Positions 20,534-28,433 of a DNA stretch of 64,000 bases are shown one piece after another. The DNA is from Atribacter laminatus. Its GTDB lineage: Bacteria; Atribacterota; Atribacteria; Atribacterales; Atribacteraceae. The DNA is taken from NCBI RefSeq assembly GCF_015775515.1, contig NZ_CP065383.1:1922001-1986000 (forward strand), given 5' to 3'. The translations under genes and the position numbers were made by a program. The notes under the pieces are model-generated. The model did not search any database. It was given only the letters and a program-made list of their open reading frames with translations, and was not told the DNA's origin. How positions within the stretch are numbered: position 1 is the first letter of the stretch; every line of letters starts with the position of its first letter.

Positions 20534-21679
20534 TTAAAAAGGTGGCCATTCATAGTTTGGTGAAAGATAAGTATCTTGACCAAAATTGATGAAGGACAAG
20601 GGAACCGTGTGGGTAGTTTTCTGCACTATCGGTTGGTTAGGAGTAAGAGTATTTTGATATGAGCCTTGAGCTGAAAAATAGGAATCCTGTCGGTTTAAAA
20701 AGAAATACCACCCTAAGCCTGAAGCTATAAGGAAAACGATAATGCCAGTAATTAGCTGATAACCACTTTTTTTATTCCAAAGAAGAAGACCAATGATAGT
20801 CAAAAATGAAATCGGAAGAAACAGCAGCTGATTTTGAAAAAGAACAAAAGAGAGAAAGATGACGCTAATCATCCAGAAAATTCTTACCTTACCTTGAAAA
20901 AAGAGCAATCCGAGAAAGGGATAAATAAACCAGAGTTTAGAAAAAAACATCAGTAAATTATATAAAGATGTAGTCAAAAATTCTGGGAATGAATATATCA
21001 GGTTCATTGGAGAAGTATTGAGAAATAAAAAGGGATTACCGGAAAAAACCCAATTAAAAAAGAGAATAGTAATTAGGAAAAAAGATGGAGGGAAGAGTGA
21101 TACCAGAAAAAGAGATACTTTTCTTGAGAGTGAATCGTGGAAAAATAACCATTGAAAAATAATAACCGGAATACAAAACCAGAGGAATGATAGATGAGTT
21201 AAAGTTCCCACACCAAGGCTTATGCCTGCGAGAAAGAAAAAGTAAATTGATTGGGTTTCGTGGTATTGAACGATATAAGCTATGACGATGACGATAAAAA
21301 GAGCGAGCAGAAAATATGATGGTGAGGAGATTGACAAAAGAAAAAAAGGAGAAGAAATAATCAAGAGAATAAAAAAAGGGGGAAGATTTTTATTAATAAT
21401 AATTTTGGATAATAGCCAAACTGCAAAAGTTCCTATTACCGGAGGTATGAGGTTGGGAAAATAGCCAATCAAAGCAAAGAAGAAAGGCAAAAAGGGATAG
21501 GCAAGAAAGAGTATTTTCGGTTGTTCGGCTCCGGAAGAAAAGAAGATTTGTGCCCGGTTACTATAAAAATCGACTTCGGACGATATCAACCCTTTTTCTC
21601 GTGCTAAAAGAGTAAAGAAATAAAAGAGAAAAAAGCAGAATACATAGAAAATAATAGCAGGAATGGTTTTTTTATTCAT
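20534..21679 (-). CDS. polytopic membrane protein of exopolysaccharide operon
   Basis: 381 aa with about ten hydrophobic helices, beginning 'AIIFYVFCFFLFYFFTLLA'. The layout, a charged loop after helix 1 ('REKGLISSEVDFYSNRAQIF') followed by many short helices and a soluble C-terminal tail of about 55 residues, resembles PMT/GT39-like or polymerase-like membrane enzymes. I cannot identify a catalytic motif. Its start overlaps the end of the GT2 gene by 8 nt (ATGAATAA), so it is translated with the synthase and probably serves the same polymer. Confidence 0.75.
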   Translation of the reverse strand: MNKKTIPAIIFYVFCFFLFYFFTLLAREKGLISSEVDFYSNRAQIFFSSGAEQPKILFLAYPFLPFFFALIGYFPNLIPPVIGTFAVWLLSKIIINKNLPPFFILLIISSPFFLLSISSPSYFLLALFIVIVIAYIVQYHETQSIYFFFLAGISLGVGTLTHLSFLWFCIPVIIFQWLFFHDSLSRKVSLFLVSLFPPSFFLITILFFNWVFSGNPFLFLNTSPMNLIYSFPEFLTTSLYNLLMFFSKLWFIYPFLGLLFFQGKVRIFWMISVIFLSFVLFQNQLLFLPISFLTIIGLLLWNKKSGYQLITGIIVFLIASGLGWYFFLNRQDSYFSAQGSYQNTLTPNQPIVQKTTHTVPLSFINFGQDTYLSPNYEWPPF

Positions 21680-23531
21680 CTTGTTTTTCCTCTAACTGTA
21701 ACCCATGAATAGTTTTTTCCCAGAAGAAGGGACGAGTAAAGAGCTGGAAAATACCTTTCCAAGCAGCAATGCTAGTCAACCACCAATATAAAGGATTTAA
21801 AAGTGAATAAAAAATTAGCTTGTCAATACCTCTTCTGAAAACTGCCAACATGCTTAGATAAATCCCTAAAAAATTACCGATGATAAGGTTAAAAACTCCT
21901 AAGTATAAAATGGGTCCGGAAAAATAGCTTTGCAGAAATTCACCCCGATTGAAAAGCCAGATAAAAAAGAGAATCCACAAAATGAGAGAACATGCCTGCC
22001 CAAGAGTGGTTCCACCAATAAATACTTGGAGGGTAAACCATCCTTTCCAACCTGAATTTCGGATAACCTGGAGAGGATGGCGATTATGAACTAAAAAAGT
22101 TTGTAGGTACCCCTTCAGCCATCGTGAACGTTGTCGAATCCAATTTTTTATCTGGCTATTCGCTTCTTCAAAAGTTGTTGAAGGAAGAACTCCGACCCGA
22201 TAGCCTCGATAGCTGGCTCTCATGCCTAAATCAGCATCTTCAGTAACATTATACGGATCCCATCCTCCTAATTCTCGTAGGATTTGGGTACGAAAATGAT
22301 TGGATGTTCCTCCGAGAGGTATGGGTAAATGATTGATATAAAGACCTGGAAGGAGGTAATCAAACCAGTAGGAATATTCTAAAGTGAATAATCGAGTGAG
22401 GAAATTTTGGTTGGCATTATAGAAATTGAGAGCGTTTTGAAAACACATAATATCCGGGGATGATGAGCGAAAATAAGCTACCGATTTTTTTAGCTGATCT
22501 CTTTCTGGGATATCCTCTGCATCATATATAGTGAGAAATTCACCCCGTGCAAAAGCCAGCCCAAAATTGCAGGCTCGAGGTTTGGTTTTGGGTATTCCTT
22601 CGGGAACAATGACAAAGCGAACGTTGTAAGGTGGTTTTTCGGCTTTACAATGAATCAAGGTTTCATGATCATCTTCTTCGATAAGAAATATGACATCAAG
22701 TTTTTCAGGTGGATAATCAAGATTTCGGATAGCGGTTGTCAGTTGACGAATCACGCTTTGTGGTTCGTAGTAAAGAGGTAATAAAATGCTATAAATGGGA
22801 AGATCACCGGAACGAATCTGATCCTCATTTTTTTTGAATAACGAGCTTGTTGCGTCAAGCTTTGCTCCGGAAGAGCTCAGTACGAATCGAAATATTACAT
22901 TCATTGCATAAAAAAGATTAGCTAAACCCAATAAAATTAGGACAGTTAATCGGGGGAGAGTAAAAATGCCAATAACAATGAGAGCACACAAAAATCCTAA
23001 GCCAATCCACTGAACAGGAGTAAAGACTCTTATTGCTGATTCCTCTGGAGAGCGATAAAAAAGACCGGAAGTTGCTTCTTGTAAAAATTTATCTTTAAAA
23101 AAGATGTGAGCCAGCCAATCTAATTCATAGAGCGTGATCAATTTAAAAACCAGTTTTTTTTCAGGAAACTTTTTCTCTAAAAAATGTTGAAGAGAAGAGT
23201 TTTTGGGGTTGGGAGTAAGGATTTCTAATTCATCCTGATTGTAGCGATAGGGGAAAAAGGAAAATTGAAAAAAGTCTTGGGAACTAAAAACCGAAAGCAG
23301 TTCCGGATCGATTTTTTGAGTAAGAAGTTTTAAATTTTCTCCAGCGTATTCAAAAGAACCTTGTTGGGTGATAACCTGATAGAGTTGGATAGGATTTACA
23401 AAACCAAGAGAAATAAGAATTTCTCCCAAAAGACTCCCGGTTTCCTTTTGGAGTTCAAGAGCCTGAGCTAACTGTTCTTTGGTTATTAAATTTTTTTCAA
23501 GTAATATTTCACCTATGGGTTTACTAATCAT
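21672..23531 (-). CDS. MshEN-GT2 fusion: cellulose-synthase-like membrane glycosyltransferase
   Basis: 619 aa. Residues 5-57 are two tandem 24-residue repeats of the GSPII_E/MshEN type ('IGEILLEKNLITKEQLAQAL' and 'LGEILISLGFVNPIQLYQV'), a fold that binds c-di-GMP in MshE. Two helices lie at about 175-215. The GT2 catalytic domain follows with DAED (337-340), EDAD (431-434) and QRSRW (467-471), the processive-synthase D,D,D,QxxRW set. Further helices close the C-terminus. It is an inner-membrane polysaccharide synthase. The Arg that opens each MshEN motif is replaced (Pro, Leu), so c-di-GMP binding is uncertain. The gene overlaps both neighbours and is the middle of a three-gene operon. Confidence 0.9.
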   Translation of the reverse strand: MISKPIGEILLEKNLITKEQLAQALELQKETGSLLGEILISLGFVNPIQLYQVITQQGSFEYAGENLKLLTQKIDPELLSVFSSQDFFQFSFFPYRYNQDELEILTPNPKNSSLQHFLEKKFPEKKLVFKLITLYELDWLAHIFFKDKFLQEATSGLFYRSPEESAIRVFTPVQWIGLGFLCALIVIGIFTLPRLTVLILLGLANLFYAMNVIFRFVLSSSGAKLDATSSLFKKNEDQIRSGDLPIYSILLPLYYEPQSVIRQLTTAIRNLDYPPEKLDVIFLIEEDDHETLIHCKAEKPPYNVRFVIVPEGIPKTKPRACNFGLAFARGEFLTIYDAEDIPERDQLKKSVAYFRSSSPDIMCFQNALNFYNANQNFLTRLFTLEYSYWFDYLLPGLYINHLPIPLGGTSNHFRTQILRELGGWDPYNVTEDADLGMRASYRGYRVGVLPSTTFEEANSQIKNWIRQRSRWLKGYLQTFLVHNRHPLQVIRNSGWKGWFTLQVFIGGTTLGQACSLILWILFFIWLFNRGEFLQSYFSGPILYLGVFNLIIGNFLGIYLSMLAVFRRGIDKLIFYSLLNPLYWWLTSIAAWKGIFQLFTRPFFWEKTIHGLQLEEKQDE

Positions 23532-23839
23532 TTTTTTATTGGGGGTTGAGTCATTCTTGAGTAAAAAACCCCAAAAAAGACCCCTACCAGGATGAGAGAA
23601 AGAGTTAAGAGATAAATTCGAAAACGTTGATAGAAATTTCCACCTATAATATTTTCAAAGAATGTATGAAAATTGAGCCCACCTATTAGAAATTTAGAAG
23701 ATTTTTGGACGAAATACTGGTTTTTCAAATAAAGGGTATCTGATTTATATAGGTGATGATATAATTCCAAGTTCTCAAAACCAAAACTAATAGTGGTTAT
23801 GGTAACAATAAACAATACTACTAGAAAGAATGTTTTCAT
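23528..23839 (-). CDS. small secreted/membrane protein leading the GT2 operon
   Basis: 103 aa from ATG 23839 (GGAGGGAG site). A signal peptide-like N-terminus ('TFFLVVLFIVTITTISFGF') is followed by a short exposed segment and a C-terminal helix ('LLTLSLILVGVFFGVFY'). It is not recognised as a named family. Its stop overlaps the GT2 start by 4 nt (ATGA), which suggests a small accessory subunit of the synthase. Confidence 0.65.
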   Translation of the reverse strand: MKTFFLVVLFIVTITTISFGFENLELYHHLYKSDTLYLKNQYFVQKSSKFLIGGLNFHTFFENIIGGNFYQRFRIYLLTLSLILVGVFFGVFYSRMTQPPIKK

Positions 23840-23994
23840 TATTTCTCCCTCCATGATAGTTTATCGGACAAATGGTGAATTTTATTATGTGTAACCGGGT
23901 TATGTTTTAGCAATTATCAGAAAATGAGTCGATAGATAGCTGGGAAGGATATAATATGATTATTCTTTCATGATGGTAAATGGAGATGATGATT

Positions 23995-25062
23995 ATGCCG
24001 ATTGCCCTTATAATGGCTGGTGGGAAAGGTGAGCGTCTCTGGCCGTTAAGTACCTCAAAAAAACCAAAACAATTTACAGCGTTAATGGACAAAACATTTT
24101 TTCAAATGACTGTTGACCGAGTTCTTCCTTTGGTGGGAGAAGACGGTATTTATGTGGTAACCCAGGAAAATTTTAAATCCGAAATCTTAAAGGAAGTTCC
24201 TTATTTATTAGAAAAAAATATCATCCTTGAACCAGTTGGGAGAAATACTGCTCCCTGTATTGGGTTAGGTGCACTCACAATAGCTCGTAAGAACCCCAAT
24301 GAAGTCATGATTGTAATTCCATCTGATCACCTGATTTTCGATGAAGAAAGATTTCGTGAAGTTGTTCGTTTTGGTTGTGAAGTCGGGATGAAAGATTATC
24401 TGATTACTTTAGGAATAACACCAACTGAAGCCCACACTGGTTATGGTTATATCCATTATGGGGATGAAAAATTTTGCAAACAAGATATAAAAGCCTGTCA
24501 GGTGCTTGGATTTATTGAGAAGCCGGATATTAAAAAAGCAAATTACTATTTTTCCAATCCTACCTATCTGTGGAACAGTGGAATATTTATTTGGAAAGCT
24601 CAAACCATTTTAGAAGAAATAACAACCCATATGCCCAGTCTTTTTCAGGGACTTAACACCATTCAACACTATTGGGGAAGGCCAGAGTTAGAAACCGTGA
24701 AATCTCAGGTATTCAATACACTTCCATCGACTTCCATCGATTACGGTATTATGGAGAAATCAGAGAGAGTGTTGGTAATCCCAGCTACTTTCCAATGGAA
24801 CGACATTGGATCTTGGTCGGCACTGGAAAAAGTATTTTCTCAGGATAAATCAAAAAATTTATCCATTGGTTCCTATTATGGATTACAGAGTCAAAATAAT
24901 ATTATCTATTCCCAAAAACCAATTATAACCTTTGGAGTTAATGATTTGATTATTGTTGAATCGGATTCTGCTGTTTTGGTGATGCACAAAAGTCTTGATC
25001 AAAAAATCAAAGAGTTAATACAGGAACTTAAAAACAACGACCAGTTCAAGCATCTTACCTAA
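23995..25062 (+). CDS. manC: mannose-1-phosphate guanylyltransferase (GDP-mannose pyrophosphorylase)
   Basis: 355 aa from ATG 23995 (GGAG 9 nt upstream); ATG 23980 would add five residues. The nucleotidyltransferase signature is 'LIMAGGKGERLWPLS', then 'EPVGRNTAPCIGLGA', 'VIPSDHLIFDE' and 'GFIEKPDIKKANYY'. It makes GDP-mannose from mannose-1-phosphate and GTP. The C-terminal cupin (PMI) domain of bifunctional AlgA/ManC enzymes is absent; a cupin of that type is encoded separately, convergent, at 25083-25685. It lies head-to-head with the polysaccharide synthase operon, so it probably supplies the sugar nucleotide. Confidence 0.92.
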   Translation: MPIALIMAGGKGERLWPLSTSKKPKQFTALMDKTFFQMTVDRVLPLVGEDGIYVVTQENFKSEILKEVPYLLEKNIILEPVGRNTAPCIGLGALTIARKNPNEVMIVIPSDHLIFDEERFREVVRFGCEVGMKDYLITLGITPTEAHTGYGYIHYGDEKFCKQDIKACQVLGFIEKPDIKKANYYFSNPTYLWNSGIFIWKAQTILEEITTHMPSLFQGLNTIQHYWGRPELETVKSQVFNTLPSTSIDYGIMEKSERVLVIPATFQWNDIGSWSALEKVFSQDKSKNLSIGSYYGLQSQNNIIYSQKPIITFGVNDLIIVESDSAVLVMHKSLDQKIKELIQELKNNDQFKHLT

Positions 25063-25082
25063 CTTTTTTTATTGGTTTAAAG

Positions 25083-25685
25083 CTAAATTATTTCACTTCG
25101 GTTAAAATCGTCTTCAATACGAACAATATCTTCTTCGGAGATACAATTACCGTTTTGAACTTCAATTATTTCCAGGAGTTCATCGCCGCGATTTTCCATT
25201 CGGTGGAAGGTCTGCATGGGAATATAGGTACTCTGATTCGGATCTAAAATGAAGGTTTGATCTCCAACGGTGACCAATGCTACTCCTTTGACTACCAACC
25301 AGTATTCATTGCGATGGTAATGCATTTGTAAGCTTAAACGGTAACCAGGATAAACAACAATTTTTTTAACCTTGTAGTGAGGTCCCTGGTCGATAATGGC
25401 ATAATATCCCCAGGGTTTTTCGATTTGAGTCGGTTCTTTTTGTGCAGAATCTTCAGAAAATTCATTTTTATTTCTTAGGTTTACTTCATTTTCAAGACAA
25501 ACTGATAAATTACTTTTTTCGTTTGCTTTTAGATAAATCGGAGTAGAAGGTGTTGATTTTTTTTCAGGTATAAAGAGGCCATTTGATAAAAAGTGATCAG
25601 TTTCAACCTCATCTAAGCTTTTTTTGTCAAATTGCTGGCTTATATCACTCTTTGAAGTTGGAGATTTACTATCTTTACGAGCCAT
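25083..25685 (-). CDS. PMI-type II cupin protein (mannose-6-phosphate isomerase-like)
   Basis: 200 aa. Residues 1-80 are charged and low in complexity. Residues 85-190 form a cupin matching the C-terminal domain of AlgA/ManC: 'EKPWGYYAIIDQGPHYKVKK', 'YRLSLQMHYHRNEYWLVVKG' (metal ligands H, H, E) and 'STYIPMQTFHRMENRGD' (last His). It may isomerise mannose-6-phosphate and fructose-6-phosphate or act as a cupin partner of ManC. It is transcribed toward manC, 20 nt apart. It has AGGAGG ahead of ATG and a GEMM-like riboswitch in its leader, so its expression is probably ligand controlled. Confidence 0.85.
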   Translation of the reverse strand: MARKDSKSPTSKSDISQQFDKKSLDEVETDHFLSNGLFIPEKKSTPSTPIYLKANEKSNLSVCLENEVNLRNKNEFSEDSAQKEPTQIEKPWGYYAIIDQGPHYKVKKIVVYPGYRLSLQMHYHRNEYWLVVKGVALVTVGDQTFILDPNQSTYIPMQTFHRMENRGDELLEIIEVQNGNCISEEDIVRIEDDFNRSEII

Positions 25686-25767
25686 TTTATAAATCCTCCT
25701 ATGGAAAACTTTCCTATGGAAATGGTTCGTATTTTACAAGTCATCATTTCGTTTTTTAGGTGGATTT

Positions 25768-25858
25768 TGGCGGCTCGACTGCCATGGCATATAAACGCTT
25801 TAGGCTCTTAGCTTTGCGCCTTTTCCTTTAGGAAAGTTTGCCTTTTCAGGTACCCATA
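25768..25858 (-). promoter_or_regulatory. GEMM / c-di-GMP-I riboswitch candidate
   Basis: Read on the minus strand, the leader of the PMI-type cupin gene contains the ordered conserved blocks of this class: GAAAAGGCAAAC, then a TTTCC-TAAA-GGAAA tetraloop hairpin, GGCGCAAAGC, AGAGCCTAAA, an ATGCCATGGCAG arm and GTCGAGCCGCC. The consensus is GGCAAAC, hairpin, GACGCAAAGC, GGNCTAA, GCCGGGTTGCC. The aptamer ends about 80 nt before the start codon. Between lies CCATTTCCATAGGAAAG...TTTTCCATAGGAGG, in which the ribosome site can pair with upstream TTTCC, suggesting translational control. No terminator U-tract is seen. One consensus A is G here. Confidence 0.75.
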
Positions 25859-25975
25859 CTTTTTCATATATTATCGGCAAAAAAGAAATTTCCTTTAGAA
25901 TAGAATTAATATATTTAATAAGTTAGACAAAAAATAAATATACTATTTGAATCAGAAAATTTATCGAATAAATAG

Positions 25976-26017
25976 CCATGCTACTTGATGGTAGCAGATG
26001 AGGATAAAATACTTATC
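25976..26017 (+). repeat. dispersed repeat R2 copy
   Basis: Imperfect hairpin GCTACTTGATGGTAGC followed by AGATGAGGATAAAATACTTA, close to the copy at 48901-48945 through the ACTTA end. Confidence 0.65.
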
Positions 26018-26061
26018 TAAAAGCGTCAAAGTGAGGAGCGCATCGATACATCTATAAAAAA

Positions 26062-26688
26062 CTACTTTCTACTATGTATACGATGAGATTTTCTTAATCG
26101 CTGACTGGCAAAAAATTCTAAAACCTCTTGCCAGGAATTGCTTTCTTCAATTGAGATGGTATCTTTATTTGCTTGATAATCAAATTTTTGAATGAAGGAT
26201 TTAAGATTTTCGTCTATATTTTTTAGACTTTTAAGAGTCTGTTCCCTAAGTTCCGATGAAATTGAAGGAGTAAGTTGTAATTCATTTTGGTGAATGATAC
26301 AAACGAAGGTATATTTTCCCCAGACATTTTTAAAATCCTTCCAATGCTTTTGAAGAATATTTTCAAGATGATGGATTTTATCTTTCCAAAGATTGCAGAG
26401 TGGACAATTTTTTAGGGTGGGATGGTTTTCATTTTTTAAATAGGTATTGAGCAAATCCTCATAGACAATACTCATACCCAAAATTGATGGTCGAGTATCG
26501 AAAACCCTTCGTAAATGATCCTGACAAAAACCTCCTTGATCGCGGAGTTTTTGACGGATCTCTGGATCGGTGACAAATTCATAGAATAATCCATCTAAAG
26601 ATTGTTCTTCAAAAGTTTTTTTATAACTGCAAATTGGACAACCATTTTCTGAGAAGAGTTCCAGTAAATCGTAATAAGTTTTATCCAC
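26062..26688 (-). CDS. DUF6062 family protein
   Basis: 208 aa from GTG 26688 behind AAGGAGATG. It carries two cysteine pairs, CPIC (residues 18-21) and CPLC (about 97-100), and a 'GGFCQDHLRR' motif, an arrangement that suggests structural zinc binding. These match the DUF6062 pattern by eye. No enzymatic motif is seen. It is transcribed alone between the exopolysaccharide genes and the GH114-like gene; function unknown. Confidence 0.75.
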   Translation of the reverse strand: MDKTYYDLLELFSENGCPICSYKKTFEEQSLDGLFYEFVTDPEIRQKLRDQGGFCQDHLRRVFDTRPSILGMSIVYEDLLNTYLKNENHPTLKNCPLCNLWKDKIHHLENILQKHWKDFKNVWGKYTFVCIIHQNELQLTPSISSELREQTLKSLKNIDENLKSFIQKFDYQANKDTISIEESNSWQEVLEFFASQRLRKSHRIHSRK

Positions 26689-26933
26689 GCTTCATCTCCT
26701 TGTAACAAATAAGCTCCATTTCGGGATGTTATCACAAATTTATTAAAGGAGAAAGAAATGAACCCAGCTGTGAACATAATTATTTGCAAATAGGAACCTG
26801 TTATTGTGAACCGGAGCAATTTAAGGTTGACTCAAGTGTCGATAAGAATGACAGTTTTATAATAAAAGGTGAGAAGGTTATCGTTAACATAGATGATTAT
26901 ACTTATTGGATTGATATTTCCAATCAATTCTAT

Positions 26934-27956
26934 TTATTGAAGTTCCTCGAAATATTCAAAAGAATCAATCAAATCTAAGTAAACTCCATCAAAACCAGCT
27001 TTGAGTATTTTATCAAGATAAGCATCTGGATTTCCAAAAATTATTTGCTGCCAATTTTTATCCCAGTAACGAATTTTATAATTTCCACTCCAATCTGGGT
27101 TTTCTTCTTCTAACCAAGGTGGAGGATTGATATCCCATTCTTTTTGCCAATAATAGCGATAATTTTCTGCTTCTCCAATTGAGAGATAGGATAGGACTAA
27201 ACGCTTACCACCATTCATTTTTTCTTTTAAATGGTCAATATCTTCATGGGTAAACATTTCATCCTTTGAAAAAAAGGCATCAATTATGAATAGGTCGTAA
27301 TTGGTGCGAGAAAGAGCTTCAATCATTTCTTCGGTATTAGAAAAGCTTGAAGGATTAATGAAATAGAGAAAATTCTTGGCATGAATTATTTTTTCAATAT
27401 TTTCGGAGTTTGCACGATAGGGCACCGAAGAGTTATCCGGAATAATATTGAGTTCTCGGCTTTCAGCAGGGAAACTAATAAATTGCTGTAAATTGTTACT
27501 TTCAAGGGAGTTCTTGATGTTGAAAGGCTCTGAGCAATAATCGGTAACTAAGACTGCTTTACCCAAAACTCGAATTTTATTCAAGAAACCAAGCCAATTT
27601 GAAGTTATGATTTCCGGTGTATGTTCATCATCGCCAAGAAAACCAAAATATAATTCTTCTTGGCCAACCCCATCTATTGCTGAGAGGTATTTGGAGATCA
27701 GCACACCTTCCGGTTCGCCATTACTAGTAAGAAGGCTAAGTCCATTCTGAGGAACAATTATAAAATAGGGATGAAATAGATGAGAATATCGGGAAATTAC
27801 CTGGATAAAATGTCGCATCTCATCTCGATAAAAAAAAGAATCACTATCAGAAAGGTTTTGGTTTATCAAATCTTGGCAATAGGTTACTCCCGATAGTACG
27901 ATAATAAAAAGGAGAATAGTATAAGCAATCTGATTTAAAAAGAATATTTTTCGCAT
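26934..27956 (-). CDS. secreted GH114 / TM1410-like glycoside hydrolase
   Basis: 340 aa with a signal peptide (cleavage near VTYCQ). The C-terminal half matches the TM1410/GH114 family: 'LVLSYLSIGEAENYRYYW', 'ENPDWSGNYKIRYWDKNW' and 'AGFDGVYLDLIDSFEYF', with the acidic residues expected in a TIM barrel. The N-terminal part is a second alpha/beta domain also seen in long TM1410 homologues. GH114 members include endo-alpha-1,4-polygalactosaminidase, an exopolysaccharide-degrading enzyme. Its place 3 kb from the polysaccharide synthase suggests processing of that or a related polymer. The ribosome site is weak. Confidence 0.85.
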   Translation of the reverse strand: MRKIFFLNQIAYTILLFIIVLSGVTYCQDLINQNLSDSDSFFYRDEMRHFIQVISRYSHLFHPYFIIVPQNGLSLLTSNGEPEGVLISKYLSAIDGVGQEELYFGFLGDDEHTPEIITSNWLGFLNKIRVLGKAVLVTDYCSEPFNIKNSLESNNLQQFISFPAESRELNIIPDNSSVPYRANSENIEKIIHAKNFLYFINPSSFSNTEEMIEALSRTNYDLFIIDAFFSKDEMFTHEDIDHLKEKMNGGKRLVLSYLSIGEAENYRYYWQKEWDINPPPWLEEENPDWSGNYKIRYWDKNWQQIIFGNPDAYLDKILKAGFDGVYLDLIDSFEYFEELQ

Positions 27957-28001
27957 TGCTTATTTTCATTGATAATTATTTAAACGAATTTTAAGAATTT
28001 T

Positions 28002-28433
28002 CTAAATCACCTCGATTTTAATATTGACCGGTCCACCGATATTTGATCCATCAAAAATAATATATGTATAGGTTCCAGATTGGGTGAGAATAAGTTCAGA
28101 GATATTGACACCATTTAATGAACTACCCAAGTCTGGCGTATAGATACTCGTCATCCCATCTGGATATTCAAGGGAACCGTAAGGTTCCATCATTGAGCTT
28201 GAACCGGTTAAGGTGATTCGAATTCTTTGCCCGTTATTGGCAAGAAATGTTACTTCTGCAAAACCACCACCTGCTCCTATCGTTCTATTCGTATTGACTA
28301 TAGTTGATGGGAGTTGTTGACCAGCTGGTAGGGGGGGTGGATTGAGTGAAAGGGTATTGATATTGCAACCAACGGCTATTGACAGAACGAAAAACAAGGT
28401 AAAAAAAGACAACCACAGAATGAATTTTCTCAT
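28002..28433 (-). CDS. small lipoprotein with beta-sandwich-like domain
   Basis: 143 aa. The signal peptide ends in the lipobox SIAVGC (Cys 23). The remainder is Gly/Ser/Thr-rich with alternating beta-strand patterns ('QRIRITLTGSSSMMEPYGSL' and 'SELILTQSGTYTYIIFDG'), resembling bacterial pre-peptidase C-terminal (PPC) or Ig-like sandwich domains. It has an AAGGAGGG site. It lies 45 nt upstream of the GH114-like gene on the same strand and may be cotranscribed. Function unknown. Confidence 0.72.
   Translation of the reverse strand: MRKFILWLSFFTLFFVLSIAVGCNINTLSLNPPPLPAGQQLPSTIVNTNRTIGAGGGFAEVTFLANNGQRIRITLTGSSSMMEPYGSLEYPDGMTSIYTPDLGSSLNGVNISELILTQSGTYTYIIFDGSNIGGPVNIKIEVI

Follow-up and report, generated by a model that had tools for sequence, protein, structure and literature searches.

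A processive polysaccharide synthase with an N-terminal MshEN domain beside a c-di-GMP riboswitch-led phosphomannose isomerase gene in Atribacter laminatus

The Pel polysaccharide is under dual control by cyclic dimeric guanosine monophosphate (c-di-GMP), through FleQ and PelD; control of one polymer by the messenger at two levels is thus not new in itself. Nor is the combination of a family 2 glycosyltransferase (GT2) with an MshEN domain: Wang et al. 2016 stated such a fusion to be possible (PMC5013675), and NfrB of the Escherichia coli NfrBA-YbcH system (family model NF008411) is a GT2 synthase with MshEN that is tied to polymer output and binds c-di-GMP with a dissociation constant (Kd) of 1 uM (PMC8669469, PMC8669472). 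Here, we analyse a 64,000-nucleotide stretch of the single-contig, 3,101,225-base genome of Atribacter laminatus (a little-studied bacterium of the subsurface, phylum Atribacterota; assembly GCF_015775515.1, contig NZ_CP065383.1, positions 1,922,001 to 1,986,000; hereafter the window), in which a processive GT2 synthase with an N-terminal MshEN domain lies close to a riboswitch-led phosphomannose isomerase (PMI) gene. A sequence-only reading had seen in this locus a different way to regulate polymer output, on the premise that known c-di-GMP-controlled synthases use PilZ or PelD-type receptors. NfrB contradicts the premise and makes MshEN-GT2 control known already; the part that endures is the riboswitch on a precursor enzyme beside such a synthase, an arrangement not met in the literature searched. 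Likewise, no description was found of an N-terminal MshEN-GT2 with BcsB or with a riboswitch-controlled PMI, subscription papers and supplements being outside the search, among them the supplements of Wang et al. 2016, where proteins of this kind could be listed. We consider it likely that one signal gates both GDP-mannose supply and polymerisation in this organism, and to the reading of the whole locus as a c-di-GMP-linked exopolysaccharide module of that kind we give about an even chance. The elements that carry this reading are as follows (window coordinates):

21672-23531, minus strand: processive GT2 synthase with N-terminal MshEN domain, 619 amino acids (open reading frame, family matches, predicted model)
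23097-23525, minus strand: MshEN domain, GT2 residues 3-145 (predicted model against 5htl_B; NF053729)
23448-23519, minus strand: MshEN motif I, GT2 residues 5-28, with Pro at the first position instead of Arg and Gly7, Leu21, Leu25 and Gln28 retained (alignment and contact-site table)
23361-23432, minus strand: MshEN motif II, GT2 residues 34-57, with Leu at the first position instead of Arg and Leu35, Gly36, Leu50 and Gln57 retained (alignment and contact-site table)
25766-25852, minus strand: c-di-GMP-I riboswitch aptamer, RF01051 (69.8 bits against a gathering score of 35)
25676-25731, minus strand: candidate expression platform, its 5' strand complementary to the cupin start-codon region
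25083-25685, minus strand: PMI cupin (TIGR01479 positions 353-466), extended at its N-terminus by about 80 amino acids
23980-25062, plus strand: manC, the mannose-1-phosphate guanylyltransferase half, TIGR01479 positions 3-352

The processive GT2 proposed at 21672-23531 is borne out by its open reading frame and by catalytic signatures (D337/D340, T430-E431-D432 and Q467-R-S-R-W471) that are invariant in 14 aligned orthologues; its ratio of nonsynonymous to synonymous substitution rates (dN/dS) is 0.08-0.10, near-identical pairs set aside. In the full-length AlphaFold model (pLDDT 88.3, pTM 0.88) the predicted catalytic part finds its best structural match in the mannosyltransferase PcManGT (Z 28.0, model residues 194-601), and the predicted catalytic and channel fold also resembles BcsA (9fnn_A, Z 26.3, model residues 189-612), a comparison that gives no substrate assignment. 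The predicted fold of residues 3-145 superposes on MshE crystallised with c-di-GMP (5htl_B; Z 17.7, root-mean-square deviation 2.6, 139 of 139 residues, 27% identity), and residues 5-57 reach 67.2 bits with the NCBIfam c-di-GMP-motif model NF053729, above its cut-off of 38, so that the fusion to an MshEN-like N-terminus suggested from the letters holds both in the structural comparison and in the family match. A phmmer search of residues 1-165 against the PDB returned PilF as the best match (E 3.5e-24) and also MshE (2.6e-9), the best single stretch of the PilF match (34.0 bits, chain residues 168-270) falling within the domain named GSPII-B in PMC11731258. No PilZ match was found in the GT2 protein or anywhere in the window genome, which has 17 GGDEF matches and a single MshEN match that exceeds the Pfam cut-off, located in a separate 568-amino-acid frame.

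The synthase is thus related to, and distinct from, the described systems. Its MshEN domain is N-terminal, whereas that of NfrB is C-terminal, and it scores 31.9 against the NF008411 cut-off of 1170; NfrB works with the outer-membrane protein NfrA, UDP-N-acetylmannosamine (UDP-ManNAc) is its proposed substrate, and the available parts of the reports describe no riboswitch or manC there, while a BcsB homologue does occur in the nfr cluster of Achromobacter xylosoxidans (PMC8669472). With BcsA-BcsB it shares the predicted catalytic and channel fold and a BcsB-like partner, but not the cellulose synthase family (TIGR03030, CelA: 69.1 against a cut-off of 699.1) or PilZ, and it differs in having an anchor-only bcsB at the synthase with a full-length one elsewhere, a GT-C partner and linkage to manC.

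To describe the c-di-GMP pocket, we aligned 14 Atribacterota rows (the window protein and 13 others, four near-duplicate, partial, frameshifted or fragmentary loci being left out). The first residue is Pro in 10, Leu in three and Arg in one row for motif I, and Leu in 12 and Pro in two for motif II. Apart from these positions, six of the 10 published contact columns are invariant compared with seven of the 41 remaining columns (Fisher p 0.011), and mean entropy is 0.25 bits at contact columns against 1.06 elsewhere in the motif region (p 0.0007), p-values that ignore relatedness and include several contact leucines that double as core residues. The invariant columns are both motif glycines, Leu25, Gln28, Leu35 and Leu50; Leu21 and Gln57 differ in one row each, the motif II Gln thus being present in 13 of the 14, and two further columns hold Ile or Leu. 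A wider comparison of 49 rows finds the motif II Gln in 10 of 11 Atribacterota rows and in six of 38 from other phyla. The two glycines match those of NfrB, where motif-glycine mutations fully or partly abolish NfrB-dependent phage infection (PMC8669472, PMC8669469). On balance, we think it somewhat more probable than not that the MshEN domain of the GT2 binds c-di-GMP.

The second input lies upstream of the cupin. RF01051 is the only Rfam match at the gathering threshold in the window, and the riboswitch that had been placed before the PMI cupin is a genuine c-di-GMP-I aptamer; it ends 80 bases before the cupin start, and the gene it precedes is the precursor enzyme, not the synthase. A c-di-GMP-I riboswitch stands upstream of the orthologous cupin in all eight cupin-bearing genomes of the family, from three genera (G000-G005, G007 and G008; G and L numbers are our handles for genomes and loci), with a lipoprotein gene in between in G008; the cupin gave no match in the other two of the 10 family genomes searched (G006, G009). 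Bases before the cupin pair with the start-codon region in a duplex of 10-12 base pairs in the predicted folds of G001-G005, while the window copy has one mismatch and a different predicted fold. Compared with shuffled sequences, the window leader has a somewhat better predicted fold (z -2.09). Judged by eye, its anti-Shine-Dalgarno stretch coincides in part with the likely P1 strand, and a terminator scan confined to the window detected nothing resembling a terminator in the cupin leader.

Both mannose genes were confirmed by family matches. Together they cover TIGR01479, the bifunctional ManC/AlgA enzyme, here split into two convergent genes of which the PMI half carries the riboswitch and an N-terminal extension. 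Neither type I PMI (PF20511) nor PGI/PMI (PF10432) was found in the window genome, where the cupin query matched only itself, and to judge from these searches the cupin is the only recognisable PMI. The extension itself (25446-25685, minus strand) lies outside the PMI domain; unique N-terminal extensions have been reported in 34 genes of RT761 (PMC7736352). The synthase and the riboswitch are 2.2 kb apart, and because manC, on the plus strand between them, converges on the cupin, the synthase and the riboswitch-cupin pair are not one operon. We therefore rejected a single operon with two inputs, and of the locus with two separate c-di-GMP-type inputs that had been proposed, the MshEN-type domain and the riboswitch both stand, but in two transcription units.

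Two further genes accompany the synthase, both of which the earlier gene list left unnamed within its interval:

23528-23854, minus strand: mini-BcsB, 108 amino acids, probable true start at 23839, with a 4-base overlap with the GT2 start
23537-23638, minus strand: C-terminal membrane anchor of mini-BcsB, residues 73-106, after a signal-peptide-like start (by eye) and a short linker
20534-21679, minus strand: membrane protein of glycosyltransferase-C (GT-C) fold according to its predicted model, its start overlapping the GT2 end by 8 bases

In many loci of relatives, BcsB-like proteins are encoded upstream of the synthase, and the five tested all pass PF03170 (34.0-61.2 bits against 21). In the genus, a gene of 103-108 amino acids, open in all six genomes, takes the place of these full-length genes; PF03170 is absent from the window's copy, and homology is limited to the C-terminal anchor. 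A BcsB C-terminus profile built from eight other Atribacterota proteins, two of them cut short by contig ends, gives 18.7 bits for the window protein and 18.3-22.3 bits on all five genus copies tested, compared with at most 6.8 for 400 shuffles, and we thus rejected chance similarity. A full-length BcsB-like gene, assigned by homology to a relative that passes PF03170 (E 7.5e-74) and not by Pfam, lies 0.29 Mb away in the window genome beside genes named by eye as grpE-dnaK; the 19 kb of sequence inspected there contains no synthase. Its relatives lie on a contig other than that of the synthase in G001, G002 (with an in-frame TAA), G004 and G005; none near full length was found in G003, a genome 87% complete, so that five of the six genus genomes have a near-full-length copy away from the synthase. 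Outside the genus, the bcsB match shares the synthase contig in G008, G009, G010, G012-G015, G018, G020 and G023, and lies on another contig in G007 and G016. G006, of the same family, has a near-full-length BcsB-like gene and no full-length MshEN-GT2 match. In work attributed to Omadjela in 2013, the BcsB C-terminal anchor is said to be enough for BcsA activity; no supporting text for this was found in the literature searched.

The fast-evolving membrane partner downstream of the GT2 has, in its AlphaFold model (pLDDT 78.2, tail under 50), a predicted GT-C fold: the model aligns best to ArnT (5f15, Z 15.6, 321 residues), and the first 41 structural matches are all GT-C-type enzymes, after which Z falls from 7.5 to 4.9. 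Plain Foldseek gave weak matches (best E 0.08, nothing under 0.001), a profile search of PDB sequences nothing credible (best E 0.84) and Pfam no match above cut-off. In other phyla, relatives are recognised chiefly from gene position and a loose alignment (12-22% identity), and BLAST detects the partner in three of 67 loci outside Atribacterota.

Near-full-length MshEN-GT2 proteins occur in 16 of 41 genomes of the phylum, including all six of the genus. G008 holds a broken copy and G013 an N-terminal fragment at a contig end, and the other 23, among them all 16 outside the order, gave partial, weak or no matches. A scan of named genomes with the orthologue alignment produced 447 relatives; as the scan patterns lie in the catalytic part, the MshEN domain is known only for the best 80, which were examined, and the match begins at residue 18 or earlier in 79 of these. 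According to sequence-record labels, the 80 include members of Bacillota, Halanaerobium, Aquificaceae, Thermomicrobium and other Chloroflexota, Synergistaceae, Cyanobacteria, Desulfobacterales and Bacteroidota. NF053729 matches 40 of the 49 compared rows at E 0.01 or better. Co-occurrence of the gene set, suggested with the earlier proposal as a check, holds in part: cupin, manC and synthase are found together in all six genus genomes and in G007, while outside Atribacterota, within flanks of at most 8 kb a side of the synthase, manC homologues occur at eight of 67 loci, cupin homologues at eight and either at 10, a count that treats related loci separately (e.g. two Aquificaceae, two Synergistaceae). 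The expectation by chance, estimated from genome size, would be about one percent. A c-di-GMP-I riboswitch is present in seven of 40 genomes with MshEN-GT2 outside Atribacterota, and in four of these (G044, G046, G063, G080) it lies elsewhere than on the synthase contig, because its coordinate exceeds the end of that contig.

Building on the predicted folds, homologies, riboswitch identity, conservation and gene linkage given above, we infer how such a module could operate. C-di-GMP would bind the MshEN domain and activate the synthase allosterically; mini-BcsB would supply the membrane anchor needed by BcsA-type synthases, with full-length BcsB provided from the distant gene, and the GT-C partner would modify or extend the chain at the outer face of the inner membrane, using a lipid-linked sugar. 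Most likely the donor would be GDP-mannose, which ManC, acting downstream of PMI, makes from mannose-1-phosphate. Translation of the only recognised PMI would be under the control of the c-di-GMP-I riboswitch, and the same signal would thereby gate precursor supply as well.

Several observations weigh against this account. UDP-glucose is the donor of BcsA-type enzymes, and the fold comparison does not single out mannose. With the aptamer enforced, the ribosome-binding site and the start codon were not released in any of six copies folded at 37, 45 or 55 C. Most, however, concern the pocket, and they favour an alternative that we regard as rather unlikely, namely that the MshEN domain is structural only, like GSPII-A of PilF, and that the riboswitch on the cupin is the sole real c-di-GMP input. 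Pfam PF05157 reaches 16.8 bits on the GT2, under its cut-off of 23.1, and the MshEN assignment rests on NF053729, the PDB sequence matches and the predicted fold. With Pro starting motif I, the strict published consensus is not fully matched; position 10 of this motif is Asn in the genus and Gly in eight of the nine other Atribacterota rows, and the extra Asp contact of MshE_C, placed by eye, is not conserved. The pocket is largely gone from the Bacteroidota and Kryptonia rows, which retain the synthase, so the domain can persist without it (L134, L135, L136, L138, L140, L143, L150, L153 and L155 combine a degraded pocket with a conserved catalytic part); to our knowledge, Bacteroidota mostly lack c-di-GMP. 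Replacing the motif II Arg by Ser eliminated binding in an engineered construct of PilF GSPII-A, a domain in which both glutamines are missing as well (PMC12002112).

Set against these points is the near-invariance of the pocket Gly, Leu and Gln residues, which exceeds that of their surroundings, as well as the behaviour of other PilF domains. In GSPII-B of Thermus thermophilus, Lys and Leu replace the motif arginines and c-di-GMP is bound with a Kd of 6 nM, the consensus having been widened to (R/K/L), and GSPII-C, one of whose three motifs begins with Pro, binds at 324-460 nM (PMC11731258). Loss of the leading Arg, counted against canonical binding when the domain was first noticed, is consequently a weak objection and not disqualifying, although the motif I Pro and the Ser-for-Arg result remain. 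Changes at Arg9, Asp12 and Gln32 of MshE itself had effects of at most fivefold (PMC5013675). Motif II begins with Leu in GSPII-B and in the window protein, which fits the extended consensus (R/K/L)LGxx... there except for Phe at 11 and Ile at 21, and departs from it in motif I by Pro at 1, Ile at 2 and Asn at 10. GSPII-B differs in being fused to a pilus ATPase, in the Lys that starts its motif I and in an Asp contact to guanine that the window GT2 does not conserve. The other two alternatives are slightly less probable again. The riboswitch-cupin could serve mannose catabolism or general GDP-sugar supply, its closeness to the synthase being incidental: PMI is also needed to ferment mannose, a sugar whose use by strain B11T is described as 'similar to' that by A. 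laminatus RT761 (PMC11227167), the two units are separate with manC on the other strand, and the G008 cupin, which comes after a lipoprotein gene led by a riboswitch, is on a different contig from the synthase. Linkage throughout the genus and in G007, and manC or a PMI cupin near MshEN-GT2 in members of Bacillota, Aquificota, Synergistota, Cyanobacteria and Chlamydiota (phyla according to sequence-record labels), argue for a functional connection instead. Equally doubtful is that the small upstream gene is a decaying, functionless bcsB leftover and the synthase uses distant full-length BcsB only; the near-full-length copies elsewhere in the genus genomes and a dN/dS of 0.23-0.48 (near-identical pairs set aside), above that of the GT2, speak for decay, but the ratio is still below 0.5, the frame is open in every genus genome, the anchor is conserved and the overlap with the GT2 start is short.

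One gene of the earlier list falls outside the module, of which GT2-MshEN, manC, PMI cupin and riboswitch stand:

26934-27956, minus strand: GH114/TM1410-like secreted protein, ending midway through the barrel (partial Pfam profile match)

What had been called a secreted hydrolase covers only profile positions 17-119 of 231 and was rejected as part of the system. Nor is the gene conserved: the frame ends at the same place in G004, where its 5' part is broken by stops, and no homologue was found in the flanks of G001 and G002 (in G003 and G005 the flank stops short of the position concerned). In G014 (L035:1-837) and G012 (L036:3420-5392), clustered regularly interspaced short palindromic repeat (CRISPR) direct repeats lie no more than about 5 kb from the synthase. 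The window genome has three c-di-GMP-I riboswitches in all, and each of the other two (L042:4948-5791, plus strand; L043:3595-5187, minus strand) precedes a lipoprotein gene, one product being C39-type-peptidase-like and the other having a zinc-protease-like HELGHVVGF motif (both labels by eye); NCBIfam gave no family for either. Among 17 riboswitch loci selected within the genus and the order, nine precede a C39-type-peptidase-like lipoprotein. A programme of surface proteins may be under c-di-GMP control in this order.

A bolder reading, which we put forward tentatively and think rather improbable as a whole, would have a widespread, so far uncharacterised class of secretory polysaccharide machines, composed of BcsB, N-terminal-MshEN GT2 and GT-C protein with ManC/PMI, activated when c-di-GMP occupies an MshEN pocket that lacks the arginines. 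In bacteria resembling Atribacter the riboswitch would also gate the sole PMI, and nature would have divided BcsB in two, an anchor peptide that supports catalysis and a periplasmic subunit that stands alone. The locus points to a class of polysaccharide synthases across many bacterial phyla that is undescribed in the literature searched, and it provides a naturally occurring case in which to test whether a synthase recognises c-di-GMP without the motif arginines. In mini-BcsB, nature would have its own counterpart of the reduced BcsB anchor, and the arrangement presents a case where one messenger may control precursor supply through an RNA and polymerisation through a protein.

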